Below, piece after piece: positions 1 to 51,654 of a DNA stretch of 51,654 bases (position 1 is its first letter; each line of letters begins with the position of its first letter). This stretch comes from Phlegmacium glaucopus. Lineage: Eukaryota > Basidiomycota > Agaricomycetes > Agaricales > Cortinariaceae. The notes beneath the pieces are model-generated. The model was given only the letters and a program-made list of their open reading frames with translations, was not told the DNA's origin and ran no database searches. A program made the translations under genes and the position numbers. The stretch spans positions 35,286 through 86,939 of the forward strand of contig MU130477.1 in NCBI GenBank assembly GCA_015039465.1, in the 5' to 3' direction.

Positions 1-1
1 A

Positions 2-2009: not shown

Positions 2010-2215
2010 GAAACACAGCACTGAAAGTGAGAACAGTGAAAGCAAGTGCACCTAAAGTGAGAGTGCTCAAAGTGAGAACACCAAAAAGTGAGAATGAGAG
2101 TACTGTGAGTGAATGCACCAAGAGTGAGAATACTGCAGGTGAACACACCAATAATGAGCACATCACAAACGAGAGCACCAAGAGCAAGGACACAGAGAGC
2201 AATCTTACCTGTTCC
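2010..2215 (+). repeat. Degenerate minisatellite (AGTGAGAAYRCC-like)
   Basis: A short unit resembling AGTGAGAACACC recurs imperfectly about a dozen times. It gives a Ser/Glu/Thr/Asn-rich reading in one frame and a hydrophobic one on the other strand. I see no gene start or domain, so I treat it as a repeat rather than coding sequence. Confidence 0.5.
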
Positions 2216-2351
2216 GGAAAATTGGACAAAAGCAAGCCAACAAGTTACAACTGGTAGAAGAAACATCAGTACAACCAAGATAAGAGGGGGAAACAAGGAA
2301 GGACTTACCATGGCAAAGGGAATTTGTGCTATGCCAGGGCCAGGAACCAGA

Positions 2352-4642
2352 CACATTATCACACACCAATACTGATTGGTAGTGTGGGTACAAAGCTTAA
2401 AAGTTGCCATCATGAAAATAAGCGGACTTTGAATTCACTTACCTCTTTTGGAAGCAGCCCTGAATCACATTCCTGGTCAACAAATCATTTGTTCAACATT
2501 ATCATCCTCATTGCTCATCATATTCTCAATGTCTCACACTATGCTATCTATCATTTACACTATCAACATGCTCCTAAACATCTACCATCCTTTTGTTCCT
2601 TGGCTAGCTATTCAACAAAGCGATCAATCCACTATTCACATTGGTCATCAGCTCACGTTATAAATCATTGTTTGTGTTGTTATAACACTAACCAGAGAGA
2701 GTGGACCAGTCTTTAGGTCAAGAGACTCCCTGTTGTTCATTTAGGGAAGGTGTAACCTTGACTTATAACACACTTGAAAGGTGGTTGAGGCACAAGAGTA
2801 AGGAAGAGGATGAGGATGAAAAAGAAAGAGTCTTTGGTGAGACTATAGCGGTTGACAGTAGAGGACAGTGACAGTAAGGGACTGAAAAAGCGAACTTAGA
2901 GGGAGGAATTCACTGGAATTCCACTGAGAAGATGACTGTTGGGGAGTAAAAATGAATTGAGGTGAACTACCTATCCTGGTACAAAAGAGCAGTATTTATA
3001 CCCTAAGGATGAGGCTATGTAGAACAATAACAAGGAAAGAAGTACGTGCTGTCAAAGGAAGAAAGATAAAGAGAGGACAGCTGTGAGAAGAAAAGAACAA
3101 TGGAAAAGAAGAAGGAACAATAAAAAAAAATCTGTAAAGTGTCAAAGTGTGAGAGAAAAGAAGAGAAGGCAGTGTACATAAGTCCAATAGCAAAAATATA
3201 TCAACTCCATAGGTGTGTGGTCATGTCAAAAATGTGAAAGGTCCTGAGTCAACACTTGAAAGGCACAGCCTTGTTCCCCAGAAAATACTACTTGCCCATG
3301 ATCCCATGTCATGCAGCCTTGATACATCAGGAAAAACACTTTGGCTCTAAGAGTCTCTCAGAGCAACCTCAAAAATTTAAGTCTACAAATCATTAAAAAA
3401 TGCATTTGAAACATATTTATTTTTTTGAGCTTGGCCTGAGAGACTCCCAGAGTAGCTAGAGTGTCTTAGAGCTACAGTGTTTTTTCTGATGCTATCCAAG
3501 GACACCTCAGGACAACCTAGGACAGCATAGATAAAATTTTGAGTCTCACACATTTGCTCAGGACACCTTTAGTGTATCCTGGTGCATTGACCATCTGGAT
3601 TAAATCACATCAGGAGGCCCTGGGAGTCCCTTAGATTTATTTGCTAGACAATATTCAACCGCCGTGTCCAGAAAAGGATTTTGCAATTTTCTCAATAAGG
3701 AGAGCTGCTATTAATATAATTTAAACATATTCAGGGTCCTAAAACAATTCTCTACCACCTTTAAAAAATTTCCTTTTTTGGAATTTTATGTAATCTACCC
3801 TGACCATATGCTCGAAATCATGCTTATCTGTGATCATGTGACCAATGGTCTGTGCGCCATCCAAAAGATATATAAACCACCCACAATTTTGTTTTCTTAT
3901 TTCCTACTTCCCCCAGTATTATAGTACTAGTATATAACTTTGTATCACTATTTTATTATTATTTTATTACTAGTATATATGAATTGAATATGATTTTATT
4001 ATATTATTATTATTCTGTTGTGTGAGACTATTTAAATATCTGGTTTATATATGCTCTAGCATCAGATCCAAAGGGACTAAGGCTGCCTCAGGGATGCTCT
4101 CAGGTTGCCTCAGGACACTCTTAGGTTGCCCCAGGACATACCCAGGACATACCTAGGACCTCTGAGTTTTCAAAAAAAAAAGACATTGGAATAATACCTT
4201 CTTAGAGCACTCTTGGAGCTCTAAGAGCTCTAGGGGTGTCCTAGAGTATTTTAGAGTGTCCTTAGAGTGTCCTAGGGCAAAAGTGTTTTTCCTGATGTAA
4301 CACTTGACACACTGTGAGAATAATCCTCTGCTGCTGATTCATCTGCAATTCCTGCTTAGTCATGATCCTCCTGGACTTCCTAAATTGTCATAAAGAGGGT
4401 GGGAAGGTACCATGTGAATGATGGCTTTGGTAGTGAACAATAAGATAAGAGGTAGATAATTGAGGATAGGGGACTGAGTGTGATCCAAGAGCGAGGGATG
4501 GCAAGATAGATGGCTGAAGTGAAAACTTGTGGGTCCATAGCCACAACAACAATGACAAAGCCTCTGACATAATGGGAGATGTAGCTGATGCATCCATAAA
4601 GAGGCCGTTCTTGAAATGATGGACCAAAGATATGATCGAACA
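2352..4642 (+). mobile_element. TRIM/LTR-element copy A (internal piece plus LTR-like block)
   Basis: Bases 2352-2663 match the reverse complement of 6080-6376. Bases 2678-4642 match the reverse complement of 6377-7405 once the MITE at 3325-4297 is removed, leaving about 1.0 kb in both copies. The block begins TGTTATAACAC and carries no coding domains. Copy A is arranged internal-then-block and copy B (reverse strand) block-then-internal. That is expected if the block is an LTR of a short non-autonomous element (TRIM/LARD) and each copy kept only one LTR. ORFs in the block are translated repeat sequence. The LTR identity is inferred, not proven by a binding site. Confidence 0.55.
3325..4297. 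mobile_element. 973-bp MITE with CATCAGGAAAA termini, TA target duplication
   Basis: Perfect inverted termini CATCAGGAAAAACACTTT are flanked by TA on both sides (3323-3324 and 4298-4299). The empty site is visible in copy B near 6735, which has a single TA. Internally it is rich in TCCTGAGG/CTTAGAG-like motifs. A second copy lies in opposite orientation at 16197-17115. It has no transposase. The CATCAG ends and TA duplication match the Plavaka elements in this window. Confidence 0.85.
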
Positions 4643-5089
4643 TGAGCCAATTGTTAGGGCAACTGCGACGCTGACTTAGTCAAGCTAGCAGGGGATCCAA
4701 AGTTAATAATATTTCAGAAAAGATATCTACAAATGACTTACCTAGCAGGGGATCCAAAGAGGAAAGGATGGGGATCCCTGCTAGGCTGGGGGTGTTTAAG
4801 TACTAATATGGACATAACGGAGATATAAAATAAATAAAGGAATGATACAATAATAATTAATTAATTAAATAAGAAGTGGTGTGATGTGAAAAATAGAAAT
4901 AAAAGACAGAGTGAAACGGAGGATCGGAGTCGGAGCGGTGATACACTGTCAGTACGCTAGGTGCTGTACTAACTGAGGTGTGATGCGGCTCGGGGCTTCG
5001 GTGGCCTAAACACTGAGTCAAGTGTATGCAGAAAGGTTCCAACTAAGGTAGGGCGACGGGATATGAGACGAGCAAAATGAGGAGCGATG
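4643..5089. other. Gene-free stretch
   Basis: No gene seen. The motif CTAGCAGGGGATCCAAAG occurs twice (about 4685 and 4742), a short direct repeat of unknown meaning. Confidence 0.4.
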
Positions 5090-5280
5090 TAATGACGAAA
5101 GGGCGACGAAGTAACGAAGTGGCGACGCAGTGATGAAGGGGAGACGCAGTGACGAAGGGGAGATGCGGTGATGAAGGGGAGACGCAGTGACAAAGGGGAG
5201 ACGCAGTGACGAAGGGGAGACGCAGTGATGAAGGGGAGACACAGTGACGAAGGGGCGACGCAGTGACGAAGTATAGTCGC
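5090..5280. repeat. Minisatellite, about 19-bp unit (GACGCAGTGACGAAGGGGA)
   Basis: About ten head-to-tail copies of a 19-bp unit with few substitutions (ACG/ATG, GGGGAG/GGGGCG). The long minus-strand ORFs (SPLRHCVSPSSLR-type repeats) are translations of the repeat and not genes. Confidence 0.85.
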
Positions 5281-5764
5281 TGTATGGGCGACTCGCAGTA
5301 AAACACAAATGAAACGAAGGCAAACGACGAGAGAGACGATGACAAGACTTAATTCTATACTCTGGGGAGAGAGGCGAATACTTTCTTATTGTTCTGTAAC
5401 TAAGTTACATGGGTTTTTTATAGTAGAGGTGATTAGAATAAATGGGGAAATGAAGCACAAGGTGTGTGGAGTAAATAGCATCAAAAAGCCTAAGGAGTTA
5501 AGTGAGAAAATACAAAAAGTCGCACCATAAGATAAAAGGAGCATGGAGAATAACTGGTAGCTAGGTAACAGTAAAATGATGTGAACATGATTTTGGCACG
5601 GTGAGGGGATGCATAAAAGTAGGAATGATAGGAAATCAAAAGAAGCAAAGTGATGCGCAGCATGGGCGACTTTTAGGAAAATAGGTAATGATGAAGATGG
5701 TGAACAGGGTGGAAAGGGCGATGTAGCAACAAGAGGGGTGATGTAGGACTGAAAGGTGTGACAT
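5281..5764. other. Spacer between two minisatellites
   Basis: No recognisable gene or domain on either strand. Confidence 0.4.
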
Positions 5765-5915
5765 AGTGACAAGGGCAATGTGGCAATGAGAGGGGCGATA
5801 TGGCGACTAGAGGGGCGACATGGCGATGAGAGGGGTGACGTAGCGACGAGAGGGGCGACGTAGCGATGAGAGGGGTGACATAGCGACTAGAGGGGCGACA
5901 TGGCGACAAAAGGGC
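5765..5915. repeat. Minisatellite, about 20-bp unit (GACGAGAGGGGCGACGTAGC)
   Basis: About seven copies of a 20-bp unit. It shares the core GGGGCGACG-AGTGAC/AGCGAC with the array at 5090-5280, suggesting common origin. The direct copies are contiguous, with no unique spacers, so it is not a CRISPR array. Confidence 0.75.
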
Positions 5916-6079
5916 AATTCCAGTTGGTAGAGCATAGCCATGTTCATCAGCGGAACTATGGGGTTCTGGAGTAAAGCGGTGATGGAAGTGGAGTTGGACG
6001 GAAGGTTGGAGGTTGTTGGAAAGGTGGGGTGTATGATTCTGAGGTTGAGGTTTGGGTTGAAGTCGGGTGTCCCCTAACA

Positions 6080-7405
6080 CCGATGACCAATGCGAATAGT
6101 AGATTGATCGCTTTGCTGGATCGCTAGCCAAGGAACAAATGGATGGTAGATGCTTAGGAGCATATTGATAGTGTAAACAATGGAGAGCATGGTGACAGAC
6201 ATTGAGGATATGATGAGCAATGAGGATGATAATGTTGAATGAATGATTTTATTGACCAGGAATGCAATTCAGGGCTGCTTCCAAAATAGGTGAGTGAATT
6301 CAAAGTCTGCTTATTTTTGTGATGGCAAATTTTAAGCTTTCTTCTCACACTACCAATCAGTATTGGTGCGTGATAGCGTTTGATTGTATCTTTGGCCCAT
6401 CATTTCAAGAACAGCCCATTTATGGATGCATCAGCTACATCTCCCATTATGTAAAAGGCTTTGTCATTGTTGTTGTGGCTATGGACCCACAAGTCTTCCC
6501 CTCAGCTATCTACCTTGCCATACCTTGCTCCTGGATCACACTCAGTCCCCTATCCTCAATTATCTACCTCTTATCTTATCATTCACTGCCAAAACCATCA
6601 TTCACGTGGTACCTGAAGCCTTCCCACCCTCTCTATGACAACTTAGGAAGTCCAGGAGGATCACAACTAAGCAGGAATTGCAGATGAATCAGCAGCAGAG
6701 GATTATTCTCACAGTGTGTCAAGTGTTATCAAGGCTGCATGACATGGGATCATGGGCAAGTAGTATTTTCTGGGGAACAAGGCTGTGCCTTTCAAGTGTT
6801 GACTCAGGACCTTTCACATTTTTGACATGACCACACACCTATGGAGTTGATATATTTTTGCTATTGGACTATGTACACTGCCTTCTTTTCTTTTCTCTCA
6901 CACTTTGACACTTTACAGATTTTTTTATTGTTCCTTCTTCTTTTCCATTGTTCTTTTCTTCTCACAGCTGTCCTCTCTTCATCATTCTCCCTTTGACAGT
7001 GCATACTTCTTTCTTTTTATTGTTCTACATAGCCTCATCCTTAGGGTATAAATACTGCTCTTTTGTACCAGGATAGGTAGTTTCTCCCAATTCATTCTTA
7101 GTCCCCTACAGTCATCATCTCAGTGGAGTTCCAGTGAATTCCTCCCTCAAGTTCGCTTTTTCAGCCTTTTATCTGTTACTGTCCTATACTGTCTACTGCT
7201 ATAGTCTTACTGAAGACTCTTTCTTACCCATCCTCATCCTTGTCCTCTACCTCAGTCACCTTCCAAGATCTTCATCCTCATCCTCCTCTACTCTCTTCTA
7301 ACCAAGTGTGCTTGCTAGTCTCTGGTTATACCTTCCCTAAATGAACACAGGGGGATATTCTGACCTAAAGTCTGGTCCAGTTCCCTCTGGTTGGTGTTTT
7401 ATAAC
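6080..7405 (-). mobile_element. TRIM/LTR-element copy B
   Basis: Inverted relative to copy A. 6377-7405 is the approximately 1.0-kb LTR-like block (uninterrupted, without the MITE) and 6080-6376 the internal piece. It preserves the empty target site for the MITE in copy A. The ORF at 6319-6687 is a conserved but domain-free translation of the block. Confidence 0.55.
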
Positions 7406-15240: not shown

Positions 15241-18200
15241 CTAATCTTCGTCTTCAAGGTCACTATCATCATCCACAAGGTGGAATTCCGGTTCTGGTTC
15301 AGGTGTGCCGGCTGTCACCTGTGGTGCGACAGTTTCCTTCCTTATCTTTGAGGCCTGGGTAGCTGCGTCGAGGATTTTCTTCCACTGCTTCTCCTTCAGC
15401 TGCGAGACGAGGTGCACAAGGTTGGAGGTTGTCTTGATTTGCACAATTCTTCCTTCCCGGGTTTCCGTGTGATCACCCCAGTTGGCCTTCGAGTAGTCAC
15501 TGTAGGGACGGATTGGTCGATGTTCCTCACCGCTCGTCCACCAGCTGATTGCCCGCTTAGCCTAAATACATGAAACATCAGGTTCATTAAGCTCACCGCT
15601 TGGATACTGTGGATCAGTGCACCCACAGGCCGCTTCTCTGAACGCGAGAGTGGGTTGATGACAGAAATGCTCGACATGTGGGTACCAAGGATGGAGGTGA
15701 TCAGTGGTAGTTGAAAAATGCCCTTCAAAAAGCATTGTATGAGACTAGGAACCCTATTCAAACATGACTGGAACATAGTAAGTACTCACCGAAGACTTTT
15801 TTCCCCCTTCATTCTCTTCGTATTCACGATAATAGAACGGTTGGTCAAAGTCAGTGCGAGAGATTGCCCAAGTGCACCATTCGGCACGCGAGTCCCTTGA
15901 GTTATTTGGTAGCAATGGAAAGTGAACTTGGCGAAGCATTGCAAGCACCGATGAACCAAATTTATTCCTCCATGCAGCAAGGCGATCTTTGATCTGTGAT
16001 TGCCATGAGCATCAATACATAGTGGCCAAAACATACTCACCAATTTCTTGACGATGATACCTAATCGGATGCTGAAATTGAGCGCCGGTTCTTGAGGGAA
16101 CACCTCAGCCCATAGAGCTATGAATTCGTCATCAGTGGGCTGCTCCCAGGGAGGTGCGCATCCAAAAGCCTCAATCAGACGTGGTGTGAAGTGAGGCATC
16201 AGGAAAAATGACTTCTGCCCTAGGCTGTCCTGAAATGTCCTGGGGTGCCCCAGGCAGCTCAGGGCGCTCAGGTCAAGAGGTCGCCCTGGGGTGCAAGTTA
16301 CCTATGTATGAAAAGTCTTAGGCTGTCCTGGGGCAACCTGAGGCAACCTGAGAGCGTCCTGAGGCAACCTGAGGCAACCTGAGAGCATCCTGAGGCAACC
16401 TGAGAGCAACCTGAGGCAGCCTTAGTCCCTTTGGATCTGATGCTAGAAAACATATATAAACCAGATATTTGAGTGGTCTCACACAACAGAATAATAATAA
16501 TAATAAAATTATATTCAATTATTCTAAACATCATATATACTAGTAATAAAATAATAATAAAATAGTGATACATAAATATACTAGTATAATACTGGGGAAG
16601 TAGGAAATAAGAAAACAAAATTGTGGGTGGTTTATATATCTTTTGGATGGCGCACAGACCATTGGTCACATGATCACAGATAAGCATGATTTCAAGCATA
16701 TGGTGCTGGGTCAGGGTAGATTACATAAATTCCAAAAAAGGAAATTTTTTAAAGATGGTAGAGAATTGTTTTAGGACCCTGAATATGTTTAAATTATATT
16801 AATAGCAGCTCTCCTTATTGAGAAAACTGCAAAATACTTTTTTGGACGCAGCGGTTAAAGATTTTCTAGCAAAATTCATAAATTCTAAGGGACTCCCAGG
16901 GCCTCCTGATGTGATTTGGTCCAGATGGTCAATGCACCAGGATACACTAAAGGTGTCCTGAGAAAATGGGTGACACTCAAAATTTTACCTGTGCTGCTCT
17001 AGGATGTCCTGAGGTGTCCTGAGGTGCCCTGGGGTGTCCTGGGGTGTCCTGAGTAGTGATGTGATACTAACAAATTACCCAAGGCTACCTAGGGCCAAAA
17101 TCATTTTTCCTGATGAGTGTTGAACTTGTAATGAAGGTGGGATGGCAAATGGGTAATCCGAATATCCTCCTGTCTTTCACGGGAAGAGACAACTTGTGTA
17201 CTCGCTTTGGGCTCAATGAAGGTAGGAACAGAGGTGGTGGGGACAATTTTAGCAAGCGAACGAATCTGATAACAGTATGAAAAGAATCATCAGTTAATTG
17301 TGTGTATCCAGCTGTGCAAGAATAACTGTGACCCACTCTTGATCCCAACACCTTGACATCGGCCTTCCTACCAGACAATGCGAAACGTTCTCCCACTTCA
17401 CCTGCGTCATCACTGATCCCTCCTGCCAGTGGTTCCTCATCTGACAGGCCCTTAGAACCTCCGCCAGGAGTCATTGCAAGTGGAGCACTTGCACTTGAGA
17501 CGGACATGTGTGAACTTGATGAACGCGAATGCCCAACTTGAAGGGGGAGATAAAAATCTTCCATCATATCTATGTCATCGTCATTGCTGTGACTCGGAGC
17601 AGATTTCTCCAACCAGTCTGAATGGAGACCAGTGTCGATTTTTTTCACCTTCTTCCAGGGATGTCGACCCTCGTCATGGCTGTGGGATATGTGATGATTA
17701 AGGAACTTTGTCAACAGATTATCATCAAGAATACTCACATGTTACTGGCAGAATCCTTCTCAACCTTACGTTTTCTGGGGGCCACCATGGCAAATTTCTC
17801 GGCCGCAGTACCCACCTGGGCTCTTAGAGTTCCCTTTGGCTTCTTTCCTTTATGTTCATGTGGTTTTTTGGCTGTTTCTTCTTCTGAGATATCAAGTTTT
17901 CCATCCTTGTCATCGTCCTCTTTGTCATCGTCTTCCTCTGGTGCTGGCGCAACGTACTCATCCATGCTGTCACTGCTAAGATCTTGAACCTCCACAGGCT
18001 CCGAGTCTATTTCCACCTCTGGTATGTTAAGACAATGAGAGAAACTCAGACGCAAAGGATAATCATAGTAAGTACCTGCGGTTGTGGTCTTGGCTGCTCG
18101 GGGACGAGTTACTTTCTTCTGTGTAGTTGGAGGTGGGTGATTGGCGTTCCGAAGCTTCTCTTGGTACTGTTCTTCAAGTTCATTTTCAACTCGGGCTGTT

Positions 18201-36008: not shown

Positions 36009-36333
36009 CAACTTTTTCAAGACTTACAAAAGGGACTCTAACAGTTAAGAAAACGCGAGAGAGAAGCCGGAGGACGTATATTTGAGCTTTCCCTAGCGCC
36101 TTGAATGAATTTTGAGCGCCCCTGCCAGGGCCATTTCCTACAATCCCTTGTAGACATTGAACACGTTATTAATTTATTGCCTAATACCGAACAAAAATCG
36201 GCGGGAAGCTCAGACACCCACTATTGATCAACCCTCCTCCAAATCCTTATGTACGGAAAGCATAAAATACATCCTACAAAATGTATAAAACTAAGAGTTC
36301 CAACAGAGTGATTCACAAACATTGATGACAATC

Positions 36334-38887
36334 TCAAGGGTCATCATTCGTCGTATCAGGATCATATACAATCTTCGTCGCGCTCCTACAATAATAACAG
36401 ATATAAGCTAGAGCAACCAACTGAGAAAATGAAAGTTTAACTTACCGTTTCTCAGATCCCTAAAAAACCACATCATCGTCAATGAATCCGATGTTCATTT
36501 CCGTTTGAAAGATGAAACCACTCACGTTCTCCTTCCAGGCTATCTGTGCTTTCAGTTCAGTCATTCCGAACAAAAGAACGATATCGTAATCAACTCGGTA
36601 GAAATTTCCCTTTCCTGCAGCTTTTTGTCGAGGACGCAGAGGTACCCGAGAAAGATCGGCCTCTATGGTACAAAGCTTGGTGTAATGATCTACCAAAAAT
36701 ATTAAACCTCACCAAGGTGCACCAACAATGGTGGTAATAATGAAACTCAACTGGTATCAATGTCTTTCCACTTTGGAGTTGCGACGTCTCCTCGATAACA
36801 CCAAACAGAAAAAGTACCAGATCTAAAATCAGCTGCAGACTCTGATTCTCTGAAATAAGACTTTTTGAATTCTTTCGTCTCCGATACTTGGGTATTCTAC
36901 ATAAAGATATATTGAGGAAGGGATGTGCACTAAGGAAAGGTACACACAACTCACTTTAGGTAAGATGATATCGAAAGAGTCACTTATCCGCTTGTTACCA
37001 GAGACGGAGGTAAACACCTTGTGAGACCGTGCTTTGTGGTCTGAAGCGGTTCCGTCGTACGGGATGTGGCAGAAGTTTCCATATGTGATTTTAGAAACGC
37101 GAGTTTTCACAAAGTGGTCGAGGTAGAATGAGATGGCTCCATCTGACACGGCCTTGTTGCTGAATATTGAGGGAAAATAAGATAAAAAACATGAATTATT
37201 GTTTGAACATTAGAGAATACTTACACGTGGTTTTCAGGACGGATAATATTCAGCCCAAGGGGACTAAGCACATCGTGTACCTTGGTGTATAGCCAGTCAC
37301 TAGCTGCGAACCCGCCCACGAGCACGACATGCTAAATTCGCAAGTTGGAAAACGATTGTTTGGAGAACGGCGTACAAAACTTACGAAGATCGGTTTATGT
37401 GCAATCCTCTTCTGGTCAAGGACTGCTTTGACAATACAATCCACTGAAGGTTGAAAAAATTGGGCTACATCAGGCCTAGAAAAAGATTGAGGTCGGGCAA
37501 ATTCGAATCTAATCAATGACAAGGACTAACCCCATCAACTTTAGTTGACCGAAGCGAATGTTGTAGCTCTCGTCGTTGTCTCTCGTCGATCCAAATTTCA
37601 CATATTGGGGTTCATCGGCCTTCCTAAATCGAAGTTTCGTTGTCTTGTCAAAACAACGGACGATATGGTCCAAATCGTCGAGAAAAGGTGAATCAGCCAA
37701 GTAACCTACGCAACGAGGATCAATCATACTATGATGGTCATAGTTTGGTGGAGACATACTCTCCAAGAACAGTCTTGCATGCATGGTGACGAAAACAGAT
37801 CCATGGAAATGACCTGATGTATATAGTGAGCGGGAGCAGGAATATTTCAAAGCAATGGTAACGGACATTGTGGGGCAGCTATTTCTTCAAAGCTTTCCTT
37901 TGGCGAATTTGGGTTTCTGTTATACGAACTAATATCGATGGTTCCACCTCCTGCATCGACGATCACGATACCATCACCATTCTAGCGATATATATCAGTA
38001 TTCCATCTGAATGCTTTGACTTGCACTGCCTACATACCCTCATCGCTCCGGCTGGCAATCCATTCTGGACAGAGAAGTGCAAGCTAGCCTCTCCTTCAGT
38101 CACGAACGACAGCCGAGCATGACCACTCGTGTTATCAGGAATAAGCCCCGCTAGTATCGCAGCTTTCCGCATCTCACTCTGTTGTGTACCCTCCCACCCA
38201 TTCGGATGCGAAAGAACGAAATCGATCTGAAACTTCACTGAGTTCCATAGGTCGATGCCATTGACATGGGTATCTTGGATATAAGTAGATGCACATTCCA
38301 GGAGGTATCTGAGGAAGTCTGCGAAGACTTCTACCACAGTCTTGTTGAGTGGAAGTGGGGGTATATCACCACCGACAGTACGACCAGCGCCAACTTTCGA
38401 TCTAAGGTGCAGCTTAAACCTGGGAGGAGCCATGTCGATGATGAATAAATGTAGTATCCTGGAGTCGTATTAATAGGATTACCATTCTGCTTTCACCCAG
38501 TTCTCATCTTCAGCTACCTCGAATATGCCCTCTTTCATCGCTTCCGCACCCACTGCTTTAACCTTTCCATTCTGATCGTAGTAGATCACTGTGGGGATTT
38601 TGGAGGCTCCACTGATGTGCTCATGAGCGGGAAATCTACACTCAGGATGGTCAACACCTGATGATTGTTGACTGGCACCCAGGTAGTATTACTGAACCTT
38701 GTAACTCCTTTGATTTCAGGCACTTGACCGGGGTCGAGCACGCTATGATGAGAGTATGAGTATGGTTACCTATTGAACGAAGTCTTGAAGTTTTTTACCT
38801 GTAAGAAATGCCACTATATGTCGTTCCCACATCGAATGCAAGCACTAATTTGCGTCGGGAACCGCGATAGACTGATCTGGTCGACAT
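36334..38887 (-). CDS. Hsp70-family/actin-like ATPase protein, copy 1
   Basis: Starts MSTRSVYRGSRRKLVLAFDV. Phosphate-1 motif: AFDVGTTYSGISYS (residues about 17-30). Then VTRFPAHEHISGASKIPTV, FVLSHPNGWEGTQQSEMRKA and FVTEGEASLHF. Phosphate-2: IVIVDAGGGTIDISSY. Then HFHGSVFVTMHARLFLE, CFDKTTKLRFRKADEPQYVK, FFQPSVDCIVKAVLDQKRIA. Adenosine motif: VVLVGGFAASDWLYT. C-terminal part: FYLDHFVKTRVSKITYG and VDYDIVLLFGMTELKAQIAW, ending KIVYDPDTTNDDP. About ten short GT-AG introns. This type has an Hsp70-like ATPase domain with a divergent substrate part and is strongly expanded in Agaricomycetes. It is probably cytosolic, with role unknown. I saw no stop or frameshift. Confidence 0.85.
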
Positions 38888-39574
38888 GTTAGAGAAGCAA
38901 GGGTGCCTGACGGTGTCGACAACAACGGGCCTTCGGCACTGTGACAGTTGTTCAACGGCGTCAAAAGCTATGTCCTCGGCACCAGCCTGACACAAGCCTC
39001 ATGTTGATCAGGTGGGAATTGGCGCTAAGGCGCTCGCCGCTGAGGATTCTAGATCTTATCTAATCATAACTTGAACATTCACGGTCACTGGTTCTCATCT
39101 ATGGTATAACCTACAATATATAGAGCATATGCCCAGTTTCCACACGAATCATACACCAAGTTGCGACGAGGATCTGGTTGAGAATGGACGGCTGCGGCGC
39201 CTTCTATTCTAAACTCCTATCCTTTTGGCCCCACACTCAGCTGTATAATAGTTGTGTGAGAAGTATCACTGCAGGAGCGCTTGTAACCTTCAGCCTGTTT
39301 GACACCCTGATCGACATGAGATCAGCGACCCACCAGGACTCAGATAGTGCCCATCGTCGATCGAGCACAGCACCTCAGCAGGCTTAACAACCTGTCAACT
39401 GGACCAATTGTAGCATGCTCCGTATCCATAACTGTATGATTTCTGTCCTAGTACTAGTAGCTGACAGAGATCTATCAGCTGGGCCGTATTTGGGGACTAC
39501 TCTACTACACTACCTCAGGTATCAGTGCTACGTTACGACGTAGCTCTACGTAGATTTGACCTTTTCTCCTGAAG
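38888..39574. other. Intergenic spacer 1 of the Hsp70-like array
   Basis: Upstream region of copy 1, shared with the other units. Contains TATA-like AATATATAGAGCATATGCCC near 39113. The ORF at 39178-39387 is not conserved as protein. Confidence 0.5.
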
Positions 39575-39887
39575 TTTTTCAAGACTTAATACAAAAGGGA
39601 CTCCAACAGTTAAAAAAAGGCGAGAGAAGCTGGAGGACGTGTATTTGAGCTTTATCTATCGCCTTGAATGAATTTTGAGCGCCCCTGAGGGCTATTTCCT
39701 AGAATCCCTTGTCGACATCATTAAATACGTGATTAATTTATTGCCTAGTACCGAACAAAAATCGGCGGGAAGCTCAGACACCCGCTATTGATCAACCCTC
39801 CACATGAACGAAAAACATAAAATAAATCCTATAAAATGCATAAAACTAAGGTTCCAACAGAGTAATTTACAAACATTGATGCCAATC

Positions 39888-42428
39888 TCAAGGGTCATCA
39901 TTCGTCGTATCGGGATCATATACAATCTTCGCCGCACTCCTACAATACCATATATAGATATAAGCTAGAGCAACCAACTGAGAAAATAAAACTCTAACTT
40001 ACCGTTTCTCAATTCCCTAAAAAGCCACGTCATCACCAATGAATCCGATGTTTATTTCCATTTAGAAGATGAGAAACCACTCACATTCTCCCTCCAGGCT
40101 ACATGTGCTTTCAGTTCAGTCATTCCGAACAAAAGAACCATATCGTAATCGACTGTGTAGAATTTTCCCTTTCCTCCAGCCTTTTGCTGAGGACGTAGAG
40201 GTACCCGAGAAAGATCGGCCTCTATAGTACAAAGCTCGGTGTAATTATCTGCCAAAAATATTAAACCTCACCAAGGTGCACCAACAATGGTGGTAATAAT
40301 GAAACTCAACTGGTATCAACGTCTTTCCACTCTGGAGTTGCGACGTCTCCTCGATAACACCAAACAGAAAAAGTACCAGATCTAAAATCAGCTGCAGACT
40401 CTGATTCTCTGGAATAAGACTTTTTGAATTCTGTCGTCTCCGATACTTGGGTATTCTACATAAAGATATATTGAGGAAGGGATGTGCAGTAAGGAAAGGC
40501 ACACACAACTCACTTTAGGTAAGATGATACTGAAAAAATCACTTATCCGCTTGTCACCAGAGACGGAGGTATACACCTTGTGAGACCGTGCTCTGTGGTC
40601 TTTCGCGGTTGCGTCGTACACGGTGTGGCAGAAGTTTCCATATGTGACTTTAGAAACCCGAGTTCTCACAAGGTGGTCGAGGTAGAATGAGATGGCTCCA
40701 TCTGACACGGCCTTGTTGCTGAATATTGAGGGAAAATAAAAATAAAATCATTGTTTCAACATTGGAGAATACTTACACATGGTTTTCAGGACGGACAATA
40801 TTCAGCCCAAGGGGAGTAAGTACATCGTGTATCTTGGTGTATAGCCAGTCACTAGCTGCGAACCCGCCCACGAGCACGACATGCTATATTCAAAAGTTGG
40901 AAAATGATTGTTTGGAGAACGGCGTACAAAACTTACGAGAATCGGTTTATGTGCAATCCTCTTCTGGTCAAGGACTGCTTTGACAATACAATCCACTGAA
41001 GGTTGAAAAAATTGGGCTATATCAGGCCTAGAAAAAGATTGAGGTCGGGCAAATTTGAATCTAATCAATGGGAAGGACTAACCCCATCAACTTCAGTTGA
41101 CCGAAGCGAATGTTGTAGCTCTCGTCATTGTCTCTCGTCGATCCAAATTTCACATATTGGGGTTCATTGGCTTTCCTAAATCGAAGTTTCGTTGTCTTGT
41201 CAAAACAATGGACGATATGGTCCAAATCGTCGAGAAAAGGTGAATCAGCCAAGTAACCTACGCAACGAGGATCAATCATACTATGATGGTCATAGTTTGG
41301 TGGAGACATACTCTCCAAGAACAGTCTTGCATGCATGGTGACGAAAACAGATCCATGGAAATGACCTGATGTATATAGTGAGAGGGAGCAGGAATATTTC
41401 AAAGCAATGATAACGGACATTGTGGGGCAGCTATTTCTTCAAAGCTTTCCTTTGGCGAATTTGGGTCCCTGCGATACGAACTAATATCGATGGTTCCACC
41501 TCCTGCATCAACAATCACGATACCATCACCATTCTAACGATATCAGTATTCCGTCTGAATGCTTTGACTGCATTGCGTACATACCGTCATCGCTCCGGCT
41601 GGCAATCCATTCTGTGCAGAGAAGTGCAAGCTAGCCTCTCCTTCAGTCACGAACGACAGCCGAGCATGACCACTCGTGTTATCAGGAATAAGCCCGGCTA
41701 ATATCGCAGCTTTCCGCATCTCACTCTGTTGTGCACCCTCCCACCCATTCGGATGCGAAAGAACGAAATCGATCTGAGACTTCACTGAGTCCCATAGGTC
41801 GATGCCATTGACATGGGTATCTTGGATATAACTAGATGCACATTCTAGGAGATAGCTGAGGAAGTCTGCGAAGACTTCTACCACAGTCTTGTTGAGTGGA
41901 AGTGGAGGTATGTCACCGCCGACAGCACGACCTGCGCCAACTCTCGATCTAAGGTGCAGTTTAAACCTGAGAAAAACCATGTCAATGATGAATAAATGTA
42001 GCATCATGGAGTCATATTAATAGGATTACCATTCAGCTTTCACCCAGTTCTCATCTTCAGCTACCTCGCATATGCCCTCGTCCATGGCTTCCGCACCCAC
42101 TGCTCTAACCGTTCCATTCCGATCGTAGTAGATCACTGTGGGAATTTTGGAGGCTCCACTGATGTGCTCATGAGCGGGAAATCTACACTCAGGATGGTCA
42201 ACGCCTGAGGATTGCTGACTGGTACCGAGGTAGTACTACTGAACCTTGTAACTCCTTTGATTTCAGGCACTTGACCGGGATCGAGCACGCTATGATTAAA
42301 GTATGGTTACCTATTGAGCCAAGCCTTGAAATGTTTTACCTGTAAGAAATACCACTATATGTCGTTCCCACATCGAATGCAAGTACTAACTTGCGTCGAG
42401 GACCGCGATAGACTGATCTGGTCGACAT
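39888..42428 (-). CDS. Hsp70-family/actin-like ATPase protein, copy 2
   Basis: Same exon plan as copy 1, from ATG at 42428 to TGA at 39888. All nucleotide-binding motifs are kept (DVGTTYSG, DAGGGTID, LVGGFAASDW). Differences are mostly conservative, for example FRLHL-region MVFLRFKLHLRSRVGAG, and YLADSPFLDDLDHIVHCFDK. The stretch YTSVSGDKRISDFFSIILPK is the most diverged. No disabling change seen. Confidence 0.83.
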
Positions 42429-43469
42429 GTTAGAGAAGCAAGAGTGCCTGAGGGTGTCGACAAGAACGTGCCTTGGGTACTGTGACAGTTGTTAGACAGC
42501 GTCAAAAGCTATGTCCTCGGCACCACCCTGACACAAGCCTCATGTTGATGAGGTGAATTGGCGCTCGCCGCTGAGTGCTTGTAATGGTTCATCTATGGTA
42601 TGACCTACAATTTAGAGCATATCCCCGGTATCCGAATCATGAACCAATTTGAGACGACTCGGAGGACCTGAATGGGCGGCATTAGACTCAAAAGCTAAGT
42701 ACTGCACAGCCTTCTATTCTAAACTTCTATCTTTTTCCCCCACACTCAGCTGTATACGTATACTAGTTGTGTGAGAACTTAGAAGCATCACTGCAGGAGC
42801 AGACGATCTGAATCCAATTCATCAGCAGCTTGTAACCTTCAGCCTGTTTGACACCCTGATCTACATGAGGTCAGCGGCCCACCAGGACTCAGAAGGTGCC
42901 CATCGTCGATCGAGCACCCACCTCAGCAGGGTTAACAACCTGTTAACTGGACGCATTTCCCAATTGTAGCATGCTCCTGTAAGAACGACAGCAAGAATCT
43001 AATTTATTCGAGTACTGGATTTATATACGCTATGGCTTGTAGTAGATAGTACGAATGTGGCTTTTAATTAATTCAACTCGGGCATGGCAACGCCGAGAGC
43101 GCTGATCAAGCGCTTGATGGTGCCTAATGCTGCTTGTGACCGTTTGCCCGGCGGACAACACATTCCAACAGCTCCGTATCCATTACCGTATGATTTCTGC
43201 CCTATTACTAGTAGCTGACATTGACCGGTATCTATGTGGACGTCAGTAGTTGTAGTAGTCACAATAGAGTTGGTACTCGCATAGCAGTCTATTGGAGTCA
43301 ATATGAACTACCGTATTACAAGTGTATGCTACATCATACTACTGAATGCCAACAGAGATCTACCAGCACTCCATATGAATAATGAGGGGACTACTCTAGT
43401 AACTCTAACTCTACCACACTACCTCAGGTATCAGTGCTACGTAGCTCTACGCAGATTTGTCCTTTTCCC
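42429..43469. other. Intergenic spacer 2 of the Hsp70-like array
   Basis: Homologous to spacers 1 and 3 with extra sequence (about 42990-43350). No gene recognised; the minus-strand ORF at 43068-43301 has no clear domain. Confidence 0.5.
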
Positions 43470-43633
43470 CTGAAGTTTTTCAAGACTTACAAAAGGGACT
43501 CCGACAGTTAAAACAAGCGAGAGAAGCTGGAGGACGTGTATTTGAGCTTTCCCTATCGCCTTGAATGAATTTTGAGCGCCCTGAGGGCCGTGTCCTACAA
43601 TCCCTTGTAGACATTGAACACATTAATTTATTG

Positions 43634-43661
43634 TTCCGGCCGATTTTTGTTCGGTATTAGG
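43634..43661. other. 28-bp micro-inversion in unit 3
   Basis: Units 1, 2 and 4 read CCTAATACCGAACAAAAATC and on (unit 2 CCTAGTACC) after ATTTATTG. Unit 3 has the reverse complement of that 28-bp segment in the same place (starting TTCCGGCCGATTTTTG), with a short deletion just after it. Confidence 0.8.
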
Positions 43662-43798
43662 GCTCCCACTATTGATCAACCCTCCTCCAAATCCTTGTGC
43701 CTTATGTACGAAAAGCATCAAATAAATCCTACAAAATGTATAAAACTAAGGTTCCAACCAAGTTCCAACAGAGTAATTCACACACATTGATGCCAATC

Positions 43799-46337
43799 TC
43801 AAGGGTCATCATTCGTCGTATCGGGATCATATACAATCTTCGTCGCACTCCTACAATAACAGATATATATAAGCTAGAGCAACCAACTGAGACAATAAAA
43901 CTCTAACTTACCGTTTATCGATTCCCTAAAACACCACGTCATCACCAATGAATCCGACGTTCATTTCCGTTTAGAAGATGAAACCACTCACATTCTCCTT
44001 CCAGGCTACATGTGCTTTCAGTTCAGTCATTCCGAACAAAAGAACGATATCGTAATCGACTCGGTAGAAATTTCCCTGTCCTCCAGGCTTTCGTTGAGGA
44101 CGTAGAGGTACCCGAGAAAGATCAGCCTCTATGATACAAAGCTCGGTGTAATTATCTGCCAAAAATATTAAACCTCACCAAGGTGCACCAATAATGGTGG
44201 TAACAATGAAACTCAACTGGGATCAACGTCTGTCCACTTTGGAGTTGCGACGTCTCCTCGATAACACCAAACAGAAAAAGTACCAGATCTAAAATCAGCT
44301 GCAGACTCTGATTCTCTGGAATAAGACTTTTTAAATTCTTTCGTCTCCGATACTTGGGTATCCTACATAAAGATATATTAAGGAAGGGATATGCAGTAAG
44401 GAAAAGTACATACAACTCACTTTAGGTAAGATGATATCGAAATAATCACGTACATACGTGACGCCAGAGACGGAGGTGAACATCCTGTGAGACCGTGCTC
44501 TGTGGTCTGAAGCGGTTGCGTCGTACGGGATGTAGCTGACGCTTCCATATGTGACTTTAGAAACGCGAGCTTTCACAAAGTGATCGAGGTAGAATGAGAT
44601 GGCTCCATCTGAAACGGCTTTGTTGCTGAATATTGAGGGAAAATAAAAATAAAAATACATAAGTCATTGTTTTAACATTGGAGAATACTTACACGTGGTT
44701 TTCAGGACGGACAATATTCAGCCCAAGGGGAGTAAGCACATCGTGTATCTTGGTATATAGCCAGTCACTAGCTGCGAACCCGCCCACGAGCACGACATGC
44801 TAAATTCACAAGTTGGAAAACCATTGTTTGGAGAACAGCGTACAAAACTTACGAAGATCGGTTTATGTGCAATCCTCTTCTGGTCAAGGACTGCTTTGAC
44901 AATACAATCCACTGAAGGCTGAAAAAATTGGGCTACATCAGTCCTAAAAAAAATTGAGGTCCGGCAGAATCTAATCAATGGGAAGGACTAACCCCGTCAA
45001 CTTCAGTTGACCGAATCGAATGTTGTAGTTCTCGTCGTTGTCTCTCGTCGATCCAAATTTCACATATTGGGGTTCCTCGGCCTTCTTAAATCGAAGTTTC
45101 GTTGTCTTGTCAAAACAACGGATGATATGGTCCAAATCGTCGAGAAAAAATGAATCAGCCAAATAACCTAGTACGCAAAGAGGATCAATCATAATATGAT
45201 AGTCATAGTTTGGTGGAGACATACTCTCCAAGAAAAGTCTTGCATGGATGGTGACGAAAACGGAACCATGGAAATGACCTGATGTATAGTGAGCGTAAGC
45301 AGGAATATTTCAAAGCAATAGTAACGGACATTGTGCAGCAGCTATTTCTTCAAAGCTTTCCTTTGGCGAATTTGGATTTCTGTTGTACGAACTAATATCG
45401 ATGGTTCCACCTCCTGCATCGACGATCACGATACCATCACCATTCTAGCGATATCAGTATTCCGTCTGAATGCTTTGACCCGCACTGCCTACATACCCTC
45501 ATCGCTCCGGCTGGCAATCCATTCTGGACAGAGAAGTGCAAGCTAGCCTCTCCTTCAGTCACGAACGACAGCCGAGCATGACCACTCGTGTTATCAGGAA
45601 TAAGCCCGGCTAGTATTGCAGCTTTCCGCATCTCACTCTGTTGTGTACCCTCCCACCCATTCGGATGCGAAAGAACGAAATCGATCTGAAACATCACTGA
45701 GTTCCATAGGTCGATACCATTGACATGGGTATCTTGGATATAACTAGATGCACATTCTAGGAGGTATCTGAGGAAGTCTGCGAAGACTTCTACCACAGTC
45801 TTGTTGAGTGGAAGTGGGGGTATATCAGTACCGACAGTACGACCGGCGCCAACTTTCGATCTAAGGTGCAGTTTAAACCTGGGAGGAGCCATGTCGATGA
45901 TGAATAAATGTAGCATCCTGGAGTCATATTAATAGGATTACCATTCAGCTTTCACCCAGTTCTCATCTTCAGCTACCTCGTATATGCTCTCTTTCATAGC
46001 TTCCGCACCCACTGCTCTAACCGTTCCATTCTGATCGTAGTAGATCACTGTGGGGATTTTGGAGCCATTGATGTGCTCATGAGCGGGAAATCTACACTCA
46101 GGATGGTCAACACCTGATGATTGCTGACTGGTATCGAGGTAGTACTACTGAACCTTGTAACTGCTTTGATCTCGGGCACTTGACCGGGGTCAAGCACGCT
46201 ATGATTAAAGTATGAGTATGGTTACCTACAAGTCTCGAAATTTTTTACCTGTAAGAAATACCACTATATGTCGTTCCCACATCGAATGCAAGCACTAATT
46301 TGCGTCGAGAACCGTGATAGACCGATCTGGTCGACAT
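43799..46337 (-). CDS. Hsp70-family/actin-like ATPase protein, copy 3
   Basis: Same plan, from ATG at 46337 to TGA at 43799. Motifs are intact. It lacks one residue in the HINGSKIPTV loop and has LRFKKAEEPQYVK. The stretch MFTSVSGVTYVRDYFDIILP differs from copies 1 and 2. The intron before DVAQFF has shortened and begins its exon TDVAQFF. Appears full length; expression unknown. Confidence 0.82.
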
Positions 46338-47235
46338 GTTAGAGAAGCCAGGGTGCCTGAGGTGTCGACAAGAACGGGCCTTCGGTACTGTGACAGTTGT
46401 TGAACGGCGTCAAAATCTACAATAGAAGTTCTCATACTGCATAGCCTCGGGACCAGCCATAGGGTTATGCATTAATAAATTTATGCAGGACGAAAAGTGT
46501 CACAATGTGTGACATGTGACCCATTAGGCGACACCAGCCGCTCAATTCTAGATCTTGTCTAATCACAATATTCACACGGTCTCACTGCCATGGTTTATCT
46601 ATGATGGATATAACCTACAATATAAAGAGCATATGCCCGGTTTCCACATCGAAGCATAAGCGATGAGGACCTGGTTGAGAAAAATGGACGGCGTCACACT
46701 CAAAAGCTAAGTACTGCGTCGCCTACTATTCTAGACTCCTATCTTTATGGCCCAGCTGTATAATAGTGAGAAGCGTCAGGAGCAGATGATCCAAGTCATC
46801 AGCAGCTTGTAACCTTCAGCCTGTTTGACACCCTGATCGACATAAGGTCAATGGCCCACCAAGACTCAGATGGTGCCCATCGCCGTCGATCAAGCACAGC
46901 ACCTCAGCAGGCTTAACAACCTTGAACCTGTTAACTGGACGCATTTGCCCAATTGTAGTATGCTTCGTATGCATTACCGTATGATTTCTGTCCTAGTACC
47001 AGTAGCTGACATTGACCGTTGTCTATATGGACGTCAGTAGTTGTAGTAGTCGCAATAGAGTTGGTACTTGCACAGCAGTCTAGTCAATATGAACTACCGA
47101 ATTACAAGTGTGTGCTAAATCATACTACTGAATGCCAACAGAGATCTACCAGCACTGGGCCGTATTTGGGGACTACTCTACGACACTACCTCAGGTATCA
47201 GTGCTACGTAGCTCTACGTAGGTTTGTCCTTTTCC
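46338..47235. other. Intergenic spacer 3 of the Hsp70-like array
   Basis: Homologous to the other spacers. No gene recognised. Confidence 0.5.
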
Positions 47236-47550
47236 CCTGAAGTTTTTCAAGACCTACAGAAAGGCCTCCGACAGTTAAAAAGAGCCAGAGAAGCTGGAGG
47301 ACGTGTATTTGAGCTTTCTCTATCGCCTTGAATGAATTTTGAGCGCCCCTTGGGGCCATTTCCTACAATCCCTTGTAGACATTGAACACGTTATTAATTT
47401 ATTGCCTAATACCGAACAAAAATCGGCGGGAAGGCCAGACACCCACTATTGATCAACCCTCCTTATGTACGAACTAAACCTTACAAAATGTATAAAACTA
47501 AGGTTCCAACCCAGTTCCAACAGAGTAATTCACAAACATTGATGCCAATC

Positions 47551-48504
47551 TCAAGGGTCATCATTCGTCGTATCAGGATCATATACAATCTTCGCCGCAC
47601 TCCTATAATACCATATATATATATATAAGCTAGAGAAACCAACTGAGAAAATAAAACTCTAACTTACCGTTTCTCAATTCCCTAAAAAGCCACGTCATCA
47701 CCAATGAATCCGATGTTCATTTCCGTTTAGAAGATGAGAAACCACTCACGTTCTCCTTCCAGGCTACATGTGCTTTCAGTTCAGTCAGTCCGAACAAAAG
47801 AACCATTTCGTAATCGATTCGGTAGAAAGTTCCTCGTCCTCCAGCTTTTTGTAGAGGATATTGAGGTACCCGAGAAAGATCGGCCTCTATGGTACAAAGC
47901 TCGGTGTAATTATCTGCCAAAAATATTAAACCTCACCAAGGTGCACCAACAATGGTGGTAATAATGAAACTCAACTGGTATCAATGTCTTTCCACTTTGG
48001 AGTTGCAACGTCTCCACGATAACACCAAACAGGAAAAGTACCAGATCTAAAATCAGCTACAGACTCTGATTCTTTGTAATAAGGCTTTCTAAATTCTTTC
48101 GTCTCCGATACCTGGGTATCCTACATAAAGATATATTGAGGAAGGGATGTACAATAAGGAAAGGCACACACAACTCACTTTAGGTAAGATGATATCGAAA
48201 AAATCACTTATCCACAGGACACCAGAGACGGCGGTGAACACCTTATGAGACCGTACTCTGTGGTCTGAAGCGGTTGGGTCGTACAGGAGGCAGCAGACGT
48301 TTCCATATGTGATTTTAGAAACCCGAGTTCTCACAAAGTGATCGAGGTAGAATGAGATAGCTCCATCTGACACGGCTTTGTTGCTGAATATTGAAGGAAA
48401 ATAAAAAATAAAAAACATGAATCATTGTTTTAACATTGGAGAAGACTTACACGTGGTTTTCAGGACGGACAATACTCAGCCCAAGTGGAGTAAGCACATC
48501 GTGT
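47551..48504 (-). pseudogene. Hsp70-like copy 4, truncated (C-terminal part only)
   Basis: Equivalent to the last part of copies 1-3, from about VLSPLGL through NKAVSDGAISFYLDHFVRTR and EMVLLFGLTELKAHVAW to the shared end. At 48504 homology stops within the codon after HDV; sequence 48505 on is unrelated. All three ATP-binding motifs are gone, so no working ATPase can be made. Confidence 0.88.
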
Positions 48505-49235
48505 TGTAAGGAACGGAAATTGTTCAGACGCGTATTTCGCAAGCGTATCCCGTTTTAGCAATACGTCACGCGTGACTTTTCCCATTCCGGAAAAGTGACG
48601 CGCACAGGAAAAGGCAGAAAGTTCCGGAATCCGAATTTACGAGCCGTCCGAGTCATACAAGCCGTACGAGCCCATGCTGACCAAGCTTGCTGTGATCACA
48701 CAGCACTCGCTCATACCCTGACGTCCATCACCAAGTCAACCCCGCGCGATATCACAATACCTTGAACCGTATGTTCTTTCTGTTTCACAGGGTGAGTGCT
48801 CTGCTGTTCACGGAAATTAGCCTGATAGTTGATTTGTGCTCTTTCAGCTCGACATCGACTAACCCATCTATGCCTCATAAGTCAACCCCGCACGATATCA
48901 CAATACCTTGAACCGTACGTTCTTTCTGTTTCACAAGGTGAGTGCTCTGCTGTTCACGGAAATTAGCCTGATAGTTGATTTGTGCTCTTTCAGCTTGACA
49001 TCGACTAACCCATCTATGCCTCATAATACTCAAAAGGAGTCCATCGCTACGTCAACCCTGTGCGATATCACAATACCTTGAACTGTATGTTCTTCCCATT
49101 TCACGAGGTGAGTGATTGGCTGTTTACAGACACTAGCTAATAGTTAATGTGTGTTCTTTCAGCTCGACATCAACTAACCTCTATATGCCCTCATAATGCT
49201 CGAAAGAAACCTCACAACCGTGAAATAGCCGTGGA
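48505..49235 (+). repeat. Leader with a threefold repeat carrying intron-like sequence
   Basis: After a junction at 48504 comes unrelated DNA starting TGTAAGGAACGG with CG-rich hairpin words (GTCACGCGTGAC). Units starting GTCAACCC(C/T)G lie at 48735, 48881 and 49051. Each of about 146-170 bp contains a donor (GGTGAGTG) and an acceptor (CTCTTTCAG or TTCTTTCAG) about 55 bp apart. They precede the start of a zinc-finger gene, so this is probably a duplicated 5' leader exon-intron module. It may be the left end of a transposon that truncated Hsp70-like copy 4. Confidence 0.6.
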
Positions 49236-49436
49236 ATGGAAGTTGCGCTACCCGTTTGCCCCAACTGTGGCCGCCAGGTTCCATACCAGCAAGTGTCGAC
49301 GAATGTGAATGGGAATCAGGGACGCCTTCTGGCAAAGGTGAGTAGCTCACTTGATGGGCTCTAGGTGGGCAATTCTCATGATGTCCCAGTGCAACAAATG
49401 GATCCATCCGTACACGCCATTCCTCACCGAAGACAA
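49236..49436 (+). CDS. GRF-type zinc-finger protein, 5' part (continues only in mirror reading)
   Basis: Exon 1 (49236-49337) encodes MEVALPVCPNCGRQVPYQQV and on to GNQGRLLAK. After a GT-AG intron (49338-49389), exon 2 begins TGC and reads CNKWIHPYTPFLTED. This is three of the four zinc ligands of a GRF finger (C8, C11, C35) with the GN-GR core. In the given orientation a TAA follows at 49438. If the sequence from 49437 is replaced by the backward reading from 51654, the frame continues as K-V-T-K-I-QCNFFRW. That supplies the missing Cys and the aromatic FFRW end of a GRF finger. GRF fingers bind nucleic acid. In basidiomycetes this N-terminus occurs on repeat-associated proteins of unknown function. 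Confidence 0.7.
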
Positions 49437-51654
49437 CTAAATAGTTATTCATAGAAACTGGTATAGTACTATTGTAATCCTTAAGTAGTTCGCTTGGAAA
49501 GCTTAGTTACCCGTCTACGGTTTGGTGTAAAAGAAGCTGTTATTAACGTCAGAACGCTTTGTACACTTCTTACTGGGCCTTAAGTTCCTACAACCCGAGA
49601 GACAACTACAGAAAGTAAAGTTAACATTCGTAAGAGTTTTCCTACAGAAGACGGTTTACTTGACATTGGGACGGGAAAAAGGCCTCGATGAAAGACTCCT
49701 ACCCGTCCCTACCATGAAGTTAAGAAGTTAGCGTCTCGTCTGTTTACAAACCAACCCACCAAAAGTACGTTAACAAGCACTTTACGACCACCTGTCCATA
49801 TTAAAGAAGGAACTACTTTACTAAGAAGATGCTTTAGTCTACTGAGTACATTTCAACCGCTTTCGTCCTGTGACGGGATACATATCTTGTACTATTATCT
49901 TATGTTTTATGATGTTTAGTTATATCTTATGTACTTTTATACAAGAACTCAGATGCCAACTTATTGATTATATAACATTCTCGGGATGTATAGCAGCGGG
50001 CTCAGGTGTCTTCTAAGTTAACTCCATCCGTGACTTCGGTCGAAGTACGAAACCGCAAACTGGGCAAACGCACGCCGGAACTATAGACGTAGTCCACGTG
50101 CTCGGTAGAAGTACTTTAGACTGGTCCTGGGTAGTCGTTATAGTGCCGACAGGACGCGACGTGCAAAGGTGGCGACCTCTACTGGTATCATTCACGGTAA
50201 CTGTATTCCTTGGAACTTGTGGAGAAGTTTCGGGGAGAACTGGCACATCAGAGCAGCTCATCGGTCAAGGAGTTAGAATGCTTTTGGTAACCTTTGGAGG
50301 TAGTGTCTCTTTAGCCACCCGGTCCTGAAACAACTCTCCCCCCGGTTCAATCGCGAACGACAGCAAAGTCCACTACCGAGAAGAAACTGTTCCGCGAACT
50401 CAACGAAGGATATTCTGCGCCGACTATACTGTTGACCTGATAGTCTCAGTGATAGTGACGGTACTTAGAGTTAGTGTAGCGATCTAGCTCCAGCGAAGAA
50501 GGACTGTCAACACCGCGACCCCAGGAAACCACCCCCCACACCCCACCAACCCTACCACCCACGCCTCGGCAGCTGCGCCGCCCACTATAGGAGGAACGCA
50601 ACACAACTTCTGTTACCACGCAAGGCTTAAAGTAGGACGTCCCATGCGACCGCCTATATACGTGCAAGAGGACACTGTAGGTCAGCCGGGGACCCTCCAC
50701 GTTACTGTCCGTTACACACAAACTGTTCTGAGAACGTCAGAGCGTGTAGTTGGTAGAACTACTTCTGTGCCAACAAGAGTCAGTCGAGCTGTTGCACTGG
50801 TGTTAATTGTTCTCAGGTGTAGGGTTCGCTGCACGCCTTCTCCAACTCTGCCCGTTGTAATCGGTACGGTTGAACGCGGTCGTGTCGCGACAAGTTCTGG
50901 TCCACTCCGGTGCACTTTGGAAGGACTTGGAGTTACTGTCATCCGAGTTATAGCAGGACACAGGCTAGGTACTCGTTGACTGATACGCCCTCAACCTTCT
51001 TGAATGGACTTCGGTGTGCATATACTTCTGACACACGAACCAGAAGACGTTTAAAGGGTTGAAGCGGCGTAGAACGAAGGAGACACGGAGTGCGTTCGAT
51101 ACGAGGTACCGGGTGGCGAGACATTTCTGTCCGTCGTACACTCTGCGTACTCATCCGTGGCGAACCCTCTCACGGGACCAACGTTGGCCGTACCGTCCTC
51201 CGACCCAATACCGGTCACCCTATACTTAACCCCTTGAGGTACATCCGAACCCAGCTATTGCCTACTCTCACCACCCAGACACTTCCATACTCAGCTCCAA
51301 CTCCTATAGCCATTCCTCACACCCCATCCCTCCTACCTGAGGCCACCTTATAACGGTACACTGTCCGTAGGTGGAGCGAGGAACGTCACCACGAACGTCG
51401 CAACCACACACGTAGGAAAAGCCTACGCACAGCTCAACGTTGACGAGCACTCCGTAAACGGTAACTGATCTGAACTTCAACGATGAACCCTACCTCGTCC
51501 ACCGTCCCACTTCGCGACTCTGTCTCGGTCACCACCTCCTTTCTTCAGCTGTCCTACCTCAACTGATCTACTCCCTTCCCAACCGCTCTCCCTGACACTC
51601 GGCGTTGTCCTCGAACCCATGGTCGCTTTCTTCAACGTGACATAAAAGCACTGG
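49437..51654. other. Mirror-polarity block: gene readable only backwards without complement
   Basis: Read from 51654 down to 49985 as a plain reversed string. The first exon gives TKIQCNFFRW, then a Cys/His-rich part (CNSTRIRKGCTHQRCKHHCK, ERGGCLSHGN), then HMLPVFTERWAMEHSLREAQ. A canonical intron GTAAGT...GGACACAG follows (51006 down to 50957). A 323-codon open frame then runs from 50956 down to a TAG at 49987-49985, with EGFTWPHLVLNSAVL, VNCGHVVELTENNRVFIK, KKRPRSSDVIEIHGSDSDSD and GTYYGHLQRWKRAAQDSRD. An AT-rich 3' flank follows. One frame change or extra intron lies near 51290-51180. The six ordinary frames here give nothing longer than 111 codons and no recognisable protein. A physical inversion would give reverse complement, so a record error is the likeliest cause. 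Confidence 0.85.

Follow-up and report, generated by a model that had tools for sequence, protein, structure and literature searches.

The edge of a probable assembly gap in Phlegmacium glaucopus is string-reversed, and such mirroring recurs beside other N runs of the assembly

Draft assemblies carry errors at the edges of gaps, where wrong text stands beside the gap and inside repeats. The case described here is alike in both respects and differs in that the text is mirrored, i.e., reversed without being complemented. Mirrored text is, to our knowledge, no standard class of misassembly, and a search of the open-licence literature (reversed or mirrored sequence, gap-filling faults, this assembly) found no report of mirrored gap edges. 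The mirrored text resembles the KDZ (Kyakuja-Dileera-Zisupton) transposons in its transposase piece and in the CxC5 and CxC6 clusters of its relatives; the element itself looks ordinary, and only the text in the window is reversed. According to the relevant part of PMC3242753, sequence evolution is taken not to proceed by reversal, and reversed sequences serve as a negative control for homology searches. Those control sequences are likewise reversed without complementing, but deliberately, whereas the present text is unintended assembly output. For mycorrhizal fungi, the part of PMC7550596 that concerns us describes hybrid assemblies in which ALLPATHS-LG was followed by PBJelly patching with long reads; we cite this pipeline as an example of a gap-writing step only, as nothing in that part ties the present assembly to it.

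The window, i.e., the whole stretch of 51,654 bases that was analysed, corresponds to C164:35286-86939, on a contig of 1,241,598 bases (contigs are given C numbers) in a genome of 60,534,613 bases and 259 contigs. It is free of N and ends exactly where a 1,695-base N run (C164:86940-88634) starts. The last 2,245 bases of the window (49410-51654), which reach that N run, are string-reversed and not complemented. The longest stop-free frame of the reversed tail has 367 codons, against at most 163 codons in the six ordinary frames. When the tail was shuffled 2,000 times, the longest of six frames was 260 codons, so that none of the shuffles (0/2,000) reached the reversed frame. When the rest of the window was cut into 22 control blocks of 2,245 bases, the given text held the longest frame in 21 of them and the reversed text did so in one (143 vs 111 codons), with no reversed frame in any of the 22 exceeding 187 codons. 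Using a strand-symmetric composition model that compares reversed with given text, the tail scored -74.1, while the 22 same-length control blocks averaged +58.1 and never fell below +18.9 (z = -5.9). All 49 one-kb blocks before 49001 were positive at four model orders, several only slightly, so that by this model no other negative part was found at the 1-kb scale among them. Composition is blind to the difference between reversal and complementing in place, which only the joints discriminate, i.e., those of the window, of C162 on the left and, less sharply, of C226 on the left.

Protein searches gave the same orientation. With the reversed reading, 7,995 candidates, namely those sharing most words, were scored, yielding 16 homologs with a best E of 6.6e-135. 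All 16 matched the reversed tail at E 3.8e-41 or better; against both strands of the given text, 15 of them aligned somehow (best E 0.16) and one gave no alignment. Because these homologs had been found with the reversed reading, frames of the given text were searched as well. The longest given-strand frame (163 aa) had no match at E 1e-3 among 412 candidates, and the longest reverse-complement frame of the tail (96 aa) had none at E 1e-3 among six. Pfam assigned no family at E up to 1 to any of five tail frames (two reversed, one complement, two given), and relatives were therefore needed to name the element. An initial sequence-only reading of this DNA had held that the tail codes for protein only when reversed without complementing and that the ordinary six frames are poor, and had proposed that mirrored, given and reverse-complement strings be compared by protein search; that comparison, made with the reversed reading and with the longest given-strand and reverse-complement frames, returned matches for the mirrored string only, the six-frame limit of 163 codons agrees with the second claim, and frame, composition, homologs and a genomic copy on C162 all confirm the first. 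Its mirrored block stands, with a changed start: it had been placed at 49437, and the true start is 49410, 27 bases earlier.

The joint between 49409 and 49410 was placed by alignment to that copy. C162:48706-50156 on the minus strand is 99% identical over 1,453 bases to the reversed tail, which it joins directly to window base 49409; 1,437 of the 1,453 positions agree, two of the 16 that differ are gaps, and one mismatch lies at the joint. Having matched the window as far as 49409, the minus-strand C162 text runs on into the tail read from 51654 backwards. A second copy, on C226, is itself mirrored and matches the given text of the window from 49410 onwards (99.0% over 887 bases). Composition alone put the change point at 49425. 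With the tail reversed in place, the sequence is contiguous at the joint again, as seen both in the C162 alignment and in P0015, a related protein that reads unbroken across it: the window's CNKWIHP, continued beyond the joint by VTKIQCNFFRWYP, matches CNQWIHPVTNIRCNFFYWHP of P0015.

Once the tail is reversed, a spliced gene can be followed across the joint. Exon 1 (49236-49337, plus strand, 34 codons) is in ordinary orientation, and its MEVALPVCPNCGRQVPYQQVSTNVNGNQGRLLAK was aligned to P0015 and P0016. Intron 1 (49338-49389, plus strand, 52 nt, GTGAGT...CAG) is absent from P0015, and P0016 appears to read through the equivalent stretch. Exon 2 begins at 49390-49409 (plus strand), 20 nt that are the last correctly ordered bases before the joint and that C162 (minus strand) and P0015 continue into the reversed tail; the rest of it, at 51007-51654, is read from 51654 to 51007 without complementing. 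Intron 2 (50957-51006, GTAAGT...ACAG, 50 nt) is read in the same manner from 51006 to 50957, and P0015 reads IQDDVEPT across its site. The last exon (49985-50956), read from 50956 to 49985 without complementing, comprises 323 codons and TAG, and 14 of the 16 homologs align to it with 66-74% identity over 284-307 residues. The 50-nt intron and the 323-codon frame ending in TAG were thus found where the sequence-only reading had seen them, and its statement that the ordinary gene continues in frame into the backward text is borne out by the P0015 match and the unbroken text of C162. Compared with the C162 copy, exon 2 of the window copy carries a frame shift, and as a result the joined reading as it stands stops after 189 residues. 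P0015 has an N-terminus that is similar to a GRF zinc ribbon, but its match to Zn_ribbon_GRF_2 reached 21.5 bits, below the Pfam gathering cut-off of 27; the gene is therefore named only GRF-zinc-ribbon-like, or GRF-like. Directly upstream of it, at window 48733-49206, stand three tandem copies of about 160 nt that are roughly 82% alike, with related copies in C162.

A second gene, which the sequence-only reading had not mentioned, is present in the tail as the 3' piece of a predicted KDZ transposase at about 49480-49890, read from left to right in the complement, i.e., on the opposite strand of the corrected text. This piece is 81% identical over 134 aa to a copy on C147, whose overlapping upstream ORF carries Pfam CxC6 (E 7.5e-26); the upstream part of the C226 copy carries CxC5 (E 5.3e-18). 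The KDZ-associated CxC clusters are present in these relatives and not in the window piece, and the window's own 137-aa piece matched no Pfam family at E up to 1. Judged by these relatives, the tail belongs to a repeated, putative KDZ-type transposon whose two genes face each other; the N run conceals the far end of the window's copy. In the real chromosome the element is most likely a KDZ-type transposon of the ordinary kind, with its facing GRF-like gene.

The mirroring is not a single accident and recurs beside other N runs of the assembly. On C226, the stretch 298927-300774, left of the N run at 300804-310319, had a composition score of -82.8. When this left edge is reversed it becomes collinear with the KDZ copies, and later KDZ parts then follow the CxC5-bearing text at its left, which favours reversal over complementing in place. 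On C162, positions 45723-46904 are mirrored, left of an N run at 46905-48705: C162:45528-45723 matches C226:298073-298272 in ordinary order, and the stretch after 45723, which contains an inserted 585-base repeat, aligns to C226:298272-298863 in reversed form only. To the right of the C226 N run, at a distance of 98 bases, 310417-311160 shows a 97.6% mirrored match to 311167-311914; it may have been either reversed or complemented in place. With the mirrored half corrected, this stretch (C226:310417-311914; L019) would form a pair of inverted arms, each about 748 bases long, or a direct repeat if complemented in place. At the start of C164, right of an N run at 1-3730, composition was mostly negative to about 7500, with positive bins at 3501 and 6001, and a reversed 127-codon ORF there has a 98% copy in ordinary orientation at C105:738575-738955, the best of 26 matches. 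Mirrored cases thus occur at both left and right edges, and those on C164, C162 and C226 extend about 0.8 to 3.8 kb from the N run. Three of the N runs, on C164, C162 and C226, sit in copies of a single mobile element that are nearly identical. Five edges (C164 27733, 35286 and 88635; C162 48706; C145 554053) are unmirrored as judged by composition or homology, and the error is therefore not universal.

The 585-base repeat (C164:102716-103300; L023) was used as a probe for mirrored copies. In its ordinary form it gave 1,140 first-look candidates, of which 40 were scored, and as a mirrored string 59, of which 40 were scored; the remaining candidates being unscored, the ratio of ordinary to mirrored copies is only rough. 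The mirrored string yielded at least 43 match rows on at least 30 contigs, the seven best copies being 94-98% identical over about 580 bases. That the repeat might itself be mirror-symmetric was rejected, as it has no self-match of reversed against given text and its mirrored copies reach this 94-98%. Four of the five highest-scoring mirrored places were fetched with 4 kb of sequence, the top one, at the end of C147, being left out; their distances to an N run were 1, 5, 37 and 864 bases. The 864 bases at the last of these, on C224, include ordinary-looking text (+13 at 119100), so that the mirrored text there may not extend to the N run. In the examined loci, which were mostly picked via matches and are not a random sample, the distance to an N run was 1 to 2,356 bases for seven mirrored rows, the two farther ones lying at 1,863 and 2,356 bases, and 735, 8,094, 9,143 and 14,082 bases for four ordinary rows. 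The three long ordinary copies (485-585 bases) are those whose nearest known N run is 8-14 kb away, and the row at 735 bases is a 121-base piece cut by the end of the fetched sequence. The C162 copy of the repeat is inserted in the KDZ element, and about six bases of C226 text are common to both of its flanks, suggesting a target-site duplication.

Taken together, we are all but certain that 49410-51654 was string-reversed beside its N run, likely when a gap-filling or contig-extension step took a filler from the minus strand and complemented it but did not reverse it. Letter for letter, reversing a text is the same as complementing its reverse complement, and a minus-strand filler that was complemented and left unreversed would give exactly the observed text; a correct filler reversed by mistake would give an identical one. 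Either route would be a software slip made while writing sequence into gaps or extending contig ends. We infer a gap-writing step because the mirrored stretches sit beside N runs, in left-edge as well as right-edge cases. N runs in general need not all be gaps; that at C164:86940-88634 presumably is one. At near-identical copies of a mobile element an assembler would stop, and a filler would be called in. The sequence-only reading had favoured a data-handling error, in the form of a simple reversal of the tail, and the joint and the homologs support it; the recurrence beside other N runs lay beyond what that reading could see.

A one-off reversal of the tail, by hand or by a slip in handling this record only, would account for the window taken alone; mirrored stretches on several contigs beside several N runs, among them the C226 edge, and the mirrored repeat on its 30 or more contigs lead us to reject it as very unlikely. 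A fault introduced into the analysed genome copy by masking or format conversion, with the deposited assembly intact, draws on the fact that N in the analysed copy may also stand for masked stretches. Yet the mirrored stretches on C164, C162 and C226 have the lengths that fillers would have, and masking, which swaps letters, would have no reason to reverse their neighbours; we regard such a fault as highly improbable. Real DNA of mirrored polarity, which would call for some unknown copying process that adds bases in the opposite 5'-3' order, has as its sole support that the text exists, and in more than one place. Against it, none of the examined mirrored places is more than 2.4 kb from an N run, reversing in place recovers both order and frame for the window and the order for C162, and sequences are, in the relevant part of PMC3242753, held not to evolve in this way, which makes it extremely improbable. 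A chance open frame in noncoding DNA has a vanishing probability, for although the given text also has modest frames (163 codons), it is ruled out by the homologs (E 6.6e-135), the 99% genomic copy and the shuffles.

The mirror is a record artefact that recurs in this assembly and brings nothing biologically new. Annotation would miss gene ends and repeat copies lying in mirrored gap edges, false frames could arise there, and primers or probes based on such text would be spoiled. It is possible, if on balance doubtful, that a publicly used gap-filling or polishing step emits half-done reverse-complements and that mirrored gap edges are numerous in this assembly and in other published assemblies of eukaryotes. 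If so, these would have been overlooked by all six-frame and strand-symmetric searches, and a mirror-versus-given composition scan together with a reversed-repeat search would expose mirrored stretches wholesale. Searching a genome with a reversed repeat is a cheap test that can flag affected assemblies; the artefact itself serves mainly as a warning on this assembly.

Several other repeats were observed in the window. Long tandem units, 87-91% alike and starting about 3.5-3.9 kb apart, occupy 36010-48504, with further copies in the stretch spanning the C164 N run (L006). Dispersed duplicated blocks of 294, 351, 663 and 681 bases, 86-91% alike, lie at 2357-7401 and 16368-17020, and a strong GC skew (0.343) was found at 4001-6000.
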